From Dehalococcoidia bacterium (GTDB lineage: Bacteria; Chloroflexota; Dehalococcoidia; UBA2979), in assembly GCA_009692765.1 (NCBI GenBank), contig SHYQ01000005.1, positions 1 through 44,219 on the forward strand: 44,219 bases of DNA, read 5' to 3'. The translations under genes were made by a program, and so were the position numbers. Of this stretch, positions 41,671 to 44,219 are shown piece after piece. Each line of letters opens with the position of its first letter. The first letter of the stretch is position 1. The notes under the pieces are model-generated. The model searched no databases. It was given only the letters and a program-made list of their open reading frames with translations, and was not told the origin of the DNA.

Positions 41671-41727
41671 CGCGAGGGCCTTCCCGGGCGGCTCCGCGGG
41701 AGGCGCTTGGTATACACTCGCGTCAGT

Positions 41728-43902
41728 ATGGTCGTCTCGAAACCGCACCCCGCCGGCGCAAGCGAGTTGCTCGAGGCGGCGGCGGGCTACCTCCCGCCCG
41801 ACCGCGTCGAGCAGGTGCAGCGCGCCCTCGACTTCGCGATCGAGCAGCACGACGGCCAACTGCGCCACTCCGGCGAGCCCTACGTCACCCACCCCATCGC
41901 CGTCGCGCGGCTGTGCGCCGAGTTGCGCATGGACGCCTCGACCCTCGCCGCGGCGCTGCTCCACGACACCATCGAGGACTGCGGCGTCACTGCCGAGCAA
42001 CTGCGCGCGAAGTTCGGCCCGGACGTCACCCTGCTCGTGGAGGGGGCGACGAAGATCGAGCAACTGCCCGACCGCGCGCTGGACACCGAGCAGGCGGACG
42101 CCGAGACGCTCCGCAAGATGTTCCTCGCGATGGCGGAGGACGTGCGCGTCGTGATCGTGAAGATGGCCGACCGCCTCCACAACATGCGCACGCTGGAGTA
42201 CCTCGCCAGCGGCCGCCAGCAGGCGCTGGCCCGCGAGACGATGGACATCTACGCCCCGCTCGCCTCCCGCCTCGGCGTCTGGCAGTTCAAGTGGGAACTG
42301 GAGGATCTCGCGTTCCGCTACCTGGAGCCGGAGCAGTACCACCGCGTCGCCAGCATGGTCGCGTCGCGCCGCAGCGAGCGCGAGCGCTACGTGCGCCTGC
42401 TGGAAGACGAGCTGCGCGAGGTGCTGGCGGCCGTGGGCGTTACCGCGGAGGTGACCGGCCGCGTGAAGCACCTGTACTCGATCTCGGAGAAGATGCAGCG
42501 CTACGCGGAGCAGGGGCGGTCCTTCGACCAGATGCGTGATCTCCTTGCGGTGCGCGTGCTCGTCGACACGATCGCTGACTGCTACAACGCCCTCGGCGTC
42601 GTCCACCAGCACTGGCGTCCGATCCCCGGCACCTTCGACGACTACATCGCGAGCCCGCGGGAGTCGCTGTACCAGTCGCTGCACACCTCCGTGCTGGGCC
42701 CCGACATGCGGCCGTTTGAGGTGCAGATCCGCACCTACGAGATGCACCAGGTCGCGGAGTACGGCGTGGCGGCGCATTGGCAGTACAAGGGCGACAACCC
42801 CGGCAAGCGCGACGCGCAGTACGAGGAGCGCATGGCGTGGCTGCGTCACCTCCTCGAGTGGCAGCAGGAGGTCTCCGGCACGGAGGACTTCCTGGAGTCC
42901 GTGCGCATGGACGTGTTCCGCGACCAGGTCTTCGTGCACACGCCGAAGGGCGCTGTGCGCGTGCTGCCCGCCGGGTCGACGCCGATCGACTTTGCCTACC
43001 GCATCCACACCGACCTGGGCCACAACTGCGTCGGCGCGAAGGTCAACGGCAAGATGGTGCCGCTGCACACGGTGCTGAAGAACGGCGACGTGATCGAGGT
43101 GATCCGATCGCGCGTGCCGAAGGGGCCGTCGCGGGACTGGCTGATGCCGTCGCTCGGCTACCTCGGGTCCAGTCACTCGCGGCAGAAGGTACGCCAGTGG
43201 TTCCGCCGCGAGCACCGCGAAGACAACGTGGACAAAGGGAAAGAGATGCTGGAGCGCGAAACGCGCCGCCTCGGCATCGAACGCGCGCCCTCCGATCTGC
43301 CGAAGCAGCTGGGCTACGAAGGCACGCGCGACCTGCACGCGGCGCTGGGATCCGGCGATCTGAGCCTGCAGAAGCTCGCCAACCGCCTCGCGGAGTACGT
43401 GCCGCAGCCGGAGACGCCCCGGCTCTCGGCATCCACGGTGGAGGTGCAACGCGGCGCGCCGGGCGTGCGCGTGCTGGGCACCGGCGGCCTGCACGTGCAA
43501 CTGGCCAAGTGCTGTCGGCCGCTGCCCGGCGATCCGATTATGGGCTATGTGACCCGCGCGCGCGGCGTCACCGTGCATCGTTCCGACTGCCGCACTGCCC
43601 ACTGGGGGGGCGACGCGGAGCGGGTGGTTGAGTGTGACTGGGGCCCCACCGCGTCCATGTACAGCGCCTCCGTGGAGGTGCTGGCGTGGGACCGCGTGGG
43701 CTTGCTCCGTGACCTCAGTACCATCATCGCGGGCGCGGGGGTGAACATGGTTGGTGTGCGCACGGTGGAACACGACGACCGCACCACCACCGTTGAGCTC
43801 ACGCTGGAGACGGAGGGCGGAGCGCAGTTCTCCCGCCTGCTCTCGCACCTCGATGGCGTGCGCGGGGTGATCTCGGTGCGACGATCGGGGAGTGCCGCGT
43901 GA
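41728..43902 (+). CDS. RelA/SpoT bifunctional (p)ppGpp synthetase/hydrolase
   Basis: HD domain LLHDTIEDCGVT and KMADRLHNMRTL, synthetase YQSLHTSVLGP, TGS VRVLPAGSTPIDFAYRIHTDLGHNCVGAKVNGKMV, C-terminal ACT. Confidence 0.95.
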   Translation: MVVSKPHPAGASELLEAAAGYLPPDRVEQVQRALDFAIEQHDGQLRHSGEPYVTHPIAVARLCAELRMDASTLAAALLHDTIEDCGVTAEQLRAKFGPDVTLLVEGATKIEQLPDRALDTEQADAETLRKMFLAMAEDVRVVIVKMADRLHNMRTLEYLASGRQQALARETMDIYAPLASRLGVWQFKWELEDLAFRYLEPEQYHRVASMVASRRSERERYVRLLEDELREVLAAVGVTAEVTGRVKHLYSISEKMQRYAEQGRSFDQMRDLLAVRVLVDTIADCYNALGVVHQHWRPIPGTFDDYIASPRESLYQSLHTSVLGPDMRPFEVQIRTYEMHQVAEYGVAAHWQYKGDNPGKRDAQYEERMAWLRHLLEWQQEVSGTEDFLESVRMDVFRDQVFVHTPKGAVRVLPAGSTPIDFAYRIHTDLGHNCVGAKVNGKMVPLHTVLKNGDVIEVIRSRVPKGPSRDWLMPSLGYLGSSHSRQKVRQWFRREHREDNVDKGKEMLERETRRLGIERAPSDLPKQLGYEGTRDLHAALGSGDLSLQKLANRLAEYVPQPETPRLSASTVEVQRGAPGVRVLGTGGLHVQLAKCCRPLPGDPIMGYVTRARGVTVHRSDCRTAHWGGDAERVVECDWGPTASMYSASVEVLAWDRVGLLRDLSTIIAGAGVNMVGVRTVEHDDRTTTVELTLETEGGAQFSRLLSHLDGVRGVISVRRSGSAA

Positions 43903-44063
43903 ATGTGATCGAGACTTCTCGCCTCACCCTGCGGCTCATCTCGCTCGCCGATATCGAGCAGATCCGGCCGCACTCGTCCCTCGCGTACCGCTCACCGGCG
44001 CCCGAAGTTCTTGCCGGTGAACCCGTGCTCAACGTGGAAACTCTAACTCTGCAAGTGGTATGA
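43899..44063 (+). pseudogene. Truncated GNAT N-terminus fused in frame to the C-terminus of an IS3/rve-type transposase
   Basis: VNVIETSRLTLRLISLADIEQ|IRPHSSLAYRSPAPEVLAGEPVLNVETLTLQVV*; GTGA overlap with the RelA/SpoT stop. Confidence 0.65.
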
Positions 44064-44080
44064 ATACCGGGGGCAGGTCA
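43962..44080 (+). mobile_element. 3' remnant of an IS3-family-like insertion sequence
   Basis: Encodes IRPHSSLAYRSPAPE (integrase-core C-terminal signature), then non-coding tail ending gggggcaggtca; left part of element absent. Confidence 0.6.
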
Positions 44081-44129
44081 CGCGCGCGGCGGGGAGCGGC
44101 GGGATCGCGTAGGCGGTATCGAGGGTCAT
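44043..44129 (-). pseudogene. Candidate 5' fragment of a minus-strand gene truncated at the IS remnant
   Basis: MTLDTAYAIPPLPAARV then IS-derived TCPRYSYHLQS*; ggaagg purine stretch upstream of the ATG. Confidence 0.35.
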
Positions 44130-44219
44130 CGGGCGCCTTCCGTTCAGACGTGGATCTGTGGTGATCGTCGTCATGACGCGCGGATGGGCACTGCCAGCGC
44201 GTTGACGGCGGGTTGACGG

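Follow-up and report, generated by a model that had tools for sequence, protein, structure and literature searches.

Results

How did a reading frame that begins like an acetyltransferase and ends like a transposase come to lie directly behind a stringent-response gene? The locus is found near the end of the window, by which we mean the complete contig C28 (44,219 bp) of the Dehalococcoidia MAG G000, an assembly of 67 contigs that is 75.6% complete, with 4% contamination. An intact bifunctional Rel (RelA/SpoT) of 731 aa is encoded there at 41707–43902 on the forward strand; it matches Pfam HD_4, RelA_SpoT, TGS and ACT_4, each above cut-off, and is 80–88% identical to its orthologues in the same genus. 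The reading frame in question comprises 54 codons (43899–44063) and has a GTG start, the letters GTGA being common to this start and to the relA stop. The first-pass annotation, made from the sequence of the window, had described an ORF with a GNAT-like start overlapping the relA stop, and this is what we find.

Residues 1–20 of the ORF (VNVIETSRLTLRLISLADIE) are all that is left of a GNAT acetyltransferase gene, namely its first 20 codons (43899–43958, forward strand). In four genomes of the same genus (G001, G002, G003 and G004), a GNAT gene whose start matches that of the ORF directly follows relA, with a GTGA or ATGA overlap, so that relatives bearing the relA–GNAT pair, which the first-pass annotation had suggested for comparison, do exist. 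In G001, the closest relative, this gene is intact, starts with VKVIETSRLSLRLISLSDLENIHRLL and encodes a protein of 196 aa that is assigned to Pfam Acetyltransf_3 (E 6e-17) and that matches the window with 73% identity over 22 residues in a tblastn search (E 1e-4); the relatives' proteins measure about 193–196 aa where the contig is complete. A search for the missing remainder of the gene elsewhere in G000 yielded only a 30% paralogue.

Beyond codon 20, the ORF is of different origin. The 122 bp from 43959 to 44080 constitute the 3' end of an IS3-family insertion sequence (IS), consisting of the last 34 codons and the stop of the OrfB transposase (43959–44063, forward strand) and of the right terminal repeat GGGGGCAGGTCA (44069–44080, forward strand), an end that recurs in the copies on contigs C13 and C37 of the same genome and in a full-length copy in G005. 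Over these 122 bp the stump is 91% identical to G000:C13:27-148 (E 6.5e-44), where the frame upstream of the shared end reads ETWRTQYNQIRPHSSLGYRSPAPEVLAGEPVLNVETLTLQVV, as is usual at the end of OrfB transposases, and it is 79–81% identical to IS copies in G008, G011, G005 and G031 (79% to the full-length copy on G005:C88). The match to these copies is far beyond chance, with Pfam alone leaving the stump under the cut-off (rve_3, E 0.25). The in-frame fusion of an IS3-type 3' end to a GNAT start, previously proposed on the basis of the signature IRPHSSLAYRSPAPE, is thereby borne out, as the C-terminal residues do match transposases. The IS-derived part is, however, not confined to this motif but spans everything after codon 20, and it comprises 34 residues (Q21 to V54) instead of the 33 originally assigned to it.

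What remains of the element corresponds to positions ~1112–1233 of 1233, in agreement with the earlier view that its 5' part is missing: orfA, the catalytic core and the left terminal repeat are all gone, and the window thus lacks the complete transposase and the two ends that characterize a functional IS3 element. A search for the left end further upstream in the window gave nothing above chance, for which reason we also rejected the idea that the stump belongs to the two-ended short forms of 334 bp described below. The 11 base differences between the stump and the C13 copy amount to nine synonymous codons and one non-synonymous one, and the last ~60 bases are identical. As the differences are almost only synonymous, the two copies appear to have diverged as working elements, and together with the identity of the last ~60 bases this makes the truncation look recent.

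The parent element can be described from the full-length copy on G005:C88, in the same genus, which measures 1233 bp and is bounded by imperfect terminal inverted repeats, TGACCTGACCCCC on the left and GGGGGCAGGTCA on the right, of which the window has the right one alone. Its OrfA matches HTH_Tnp_1 (E 1.5e-18), and its OrfB, which goes on in another frame after the OrfA stop, is an IS3 transposase according to NCBIfam NF033516 (transpos_IS3; 251.9 bits against a cut-off of 160) and also matches Pfam rve, rve_3 and HTH_21, as is the case for IS3-type DDE transposases. The stump shares the orfB 3' end, the RPHSSLGYRSPAPE motif and the terminal repeat with IS3-family insertion sequences (orfA/orfB, DDE transposase) and differs from them in that only the last 122 of ~1233 bp are present. 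IS3-family elements generate a short target-site duplication, usually of 3–5 bp. No clear duplication is seen in the flanks of the full-length copy or of the 334-bp ones, and the window has lost the left flank.

The genome search suggested by the first-pass annotation thus turned up both a second copy of the IS end in G000, on C13, and a full-length copy in another genome of the genus. A search of G000 with Pfam rve gave no match; the transposase cores are absent from this MAG, probably lost at contig breaks. Contig C13 starts within the IS 3' end (L004:1-148) and contig C34 within the IS 5' end (L130:1-149), and the IS breaks the assembly of this genome. On C13, the IS end is directly followed by tandem DxDxDG calcium-binding-type repeats of a thrombospondin type 3-like kind (L004:150-1143), and the IS may have cut off the 5' part of the gene that encodes them. 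A third end in G000, at G000:C37:2223-2258 (L005), is a 36-bp piece of the IS right end with 100% identity, flanked on one side by a truncated hydrolase and on the other by a gene for a sugar-nucleotide epimerase. The gap between the epimerase gene and pyrE measures 4.4 kb in G001, compared to ~0.5 kb at the C37 scar, where another hydrolase fragment is present; we therefore rejected a simple deletion at this site, as its gene order is unlike that of G001 and points to a more complex change.

What lies on the far side of the stump bears on its origin. Immediately beyond the terminal repeat, at 44081–44129 on the reverse strand, the window contains the start of an HDOD-domain gene in convergent orientation, truncated by the IS end after its first 16–17 codons (MTLDTAYAIPPLPAAR). 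The nucleotide match is short, with 44083–44141 being 83% identical to G001:C6:17438-17496 over 59 bp (BLAST); at the protein level, the window's MTLDTAYAIPPLPAAR corresponds to MTLDTTFAIPPLPAAR in G001, with 87.5% identity over 16 aa, and the G001 protein is assigned to Pfam HDOD with an E-value of 4.6e-38. In the region upstream of the HDOD gene (44130–44219), which extends to the contig end, the first ~12 bp still align with G001 and the remainder is unmatched. We considered an HDOD fragment on C36 as the missing remainder of the gene and rejected it, as it is a 54% paralogue. Elsewhere in the same genome, at G000:C62:70734-71479, an HDOD gene is matched as two separate stretches in different frames.

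In G001, relA is followed by the intact GNAT gene, by yifB/comM and then by the HDOD gene on the opposite strand, in convergent orientation. In that genome, 3004 bp separate the sequences that border the scar, and this intervening DNA is absent from the window; contiguous ancestral DNA has thus been lost directly abutting an IS end, as in IS-associated deletions. The longer arrangement is probably the ancestral one, given that relA–GNAT–yifB is kept in G003 and relA–yifB in G016; the convergent HDOD gene beside yifB was seen in G001 only. YifB was not detected in the G000 MAG and is present in 17 of the 26 genomes searched, its absence being weak evidence in a MAG that lacks about a quarter of its genome. 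In G003, yifB is matched in two overlapping frames (G003:C29:11577-13099), a possible frameshift.

The two edges of the stump are of a different nature. On the HDOD side, the flank meets the IS exactly at the terminal repeat, as expected of a real insertion end. On the GNAT side (43956–43965, forward strand), an alignment of the window with the C13 IS end and the GNAT genes of the four relatives shows that the bases ATCC are common to the IS and the relatives' GNAT genes, a stretch that would extend to CAGATCC at most should the lost GNAT gene have read CAG there; the left breakpoint is therefore uncertain by a few bases.

Discussion

The comparison with relatives makes it very probable, in our judgement, that the site is the scar of a ~3-kb deletion that holds a truncated IS3-family element. 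As the right flank of the stump belongs to the HDOD gene, which G001 carries 3 kb downstream, this gene was most likely the one into which the IS had inserted, and the alternative left undecided by the first-pass annotation, loss of the IS 5' part after insertion or recombination of an IS end with the GNAT start, is largely settled in favour of a deletion that took the 5' part. From the two edges, we infer the following order of events and enzymology: an IS3-family element would have inserted at about codon 17 of the HDOD gene facing relA, with its 3' end towards the HDOD start, and a later deletion of ~3 kb would have extended from position ~1112 of 1233 inside the IS leftward, via the HDOD remainder and yifB/comM, to GNAT codon 20, so that 20 codons of the GNAT gene came to read in frame into 34 of the transposase. 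Judged by the content of the G001 locus, the deletion took yifB in its entirety, the greater part of both the GNAT and the HDOD gene, and nine-tenths of the IS from its 5' end. The few bases shared at the left junction would be compatible with end-joining, with replication slippage or with a transposase-provoked break accompanied by loss of the IS 5' end. The IS may or may not have been full-length before the deletion, given that a related genome contains 334-bp versions with an internal deletion.

IS insertion followed by a deletion accounts for every feature of the site: the genes that are missing, an IS that ends exactly where it meets the HDOD sequence, and an IS broken internally where it meets the GNAT sequence. 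An origin by direct insertion of the IS into the GNAT gene, with the HDOD start brought to the IS 3' end by a separate later rearrangement such as IS–IS recombination, might be entertained, considering that other IS copies in the genome make such recombination possible. However, the GNAT sequence joins the IS at an internal position (~1112 of 1233) and not at the left terminal repeat, for which a simple insertion would require an extra deletion, and the HDOD side joins precisely at the terminal repeat; we consider this course of events highly improbable. An artefact of assembly deserves more attention, as insertion sequences break assemblies, as seen in the two G000 contigs that start inside IS copies, and as the scar is located close to the contig end (260 bp from the left junction and 139 bp from the IS end to position 44219) in a MAG with some contamination. 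In that case, the contig would be wrongly joined at the IS end, the real genome would retain the full GNAT–yifB–HDOD arrangement, and its HDOD gene might harbour a complete IS. Yet a random mis-join would not be expected to place beside the IS the homologue of a gene that in G001 lies just 3 kb further downstream. The IS and the left junction have at most ~7 bases in common, which would be too few for k-mer assembly to cross in the absence of a physical chimeric read, and neither YifB nor the GNAT remainder was found on any other contig of G000, all of which renders a chimera unlikely.

It is also conceivable that the 54-aa chimera has been selected, as a small protein or as a regulatory element of the rel operon, given that it is in frame and has inherited the start–stop overlap with relA. 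An in-frame join is, however, expected in about one of three cases, none of the relatives examined carries a full-length homologue of the fusion, G001–G004 having the GNAT gene in its place, and no family in Pfam or NCBIfam matches the ORF above cut-off; we regard selection as extremely improbable. Pfam gave no GNAT match either, and the 20 N-terminal codons that remain do not provide an acetyl-CoA-binding GNAT domain. As the GNAT fold and the catalytic core of the transposase are both lost, the product is most likely a non-functional by-product of the deletion. The overlap with relA appears to be simply inherited, as the same GTGA or ATGA overlap occurs in relatives with intact GNAT genes, and the translational coupling assumed in the first-pass annotation is putative.

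IS3-family elements have been associated with adjacent deletions before, an example being IS150, which in the E. coli long-term evolution experiment was involved in all 14 of 14 IS-plus-deletion events in three lines (PMC11708052). The scar resembles these events in that DNA flanking an IS3-family element was lost and no target-site duplication remains to be seen, but whereas the IS was retained there, the window has lost the 5' nine-tenths of it, with a breakpoint inside the element (PMC11708052). This difference suggests ordinary illegitimate recombination or a second step, and the breakpoint within the IS would be more readily explained by illegitimate recombination. The site also resembles the truncated IS remnants of decaying or rearranging bacterial genomes, where short IS ends are found beside lost or rearranged genes, and differs from them only in which genes were hit. 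It is an ordinary site, an IS remnant at a deletion junction being an ordinary kind of bacterial genome decay. New relative to the first-pass annotation is the recognition of a deletion of 3 kb and three genes at this scar, which offers a base-pair-level view of how an uncultivated Chloroflexota lineage probably lost its yifB/comM, HDOD and GNAT genes beside an IS. For annotation, this means that the 54-aa ORF should not count as a gene; the known picture of IS elements and of the stringent response is unchanged.

This IS family leaves short single ends at junctions, with 122 bp in the window, 36 bp on C37 and 52 bp on G005:C203, and one may ask whether an unusual IS3 reaction, in which one IS end is lost together with its flank, drives gene loss in the lineage. 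We give this little credence, as remnants of both kinds are found, 5'-only as well as 3'-only, and this argues against a process acting on one side; a preferential retention of IS 3' ends is likewise not supported. Other derivatives of the element are found in related genomes. In G008, three two-ended forms of 333–334 bp share the same internal deletion (IS positions 165–1072 missing; L044:2956-3289, L048:1824-2157 and L049:2092-2424) and probably represent a non-autonomous, MITE-like derivative moved by the full element. On G005:C203 (L043:1878-2158), the 52-bp right end abuts the 226-bp left part of an oppositely oriented copy, beside a recombinase-like gene, apparently an IS that inserted into an IS and was then truncated. 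In another genus, the left end of the same IS is located at a contig end, 1.6 kb downstream of relA and after a sigma-factor-like gene (G017:C71:44998-45131, L139:1501-1634), probably as the result of an independent insertion.
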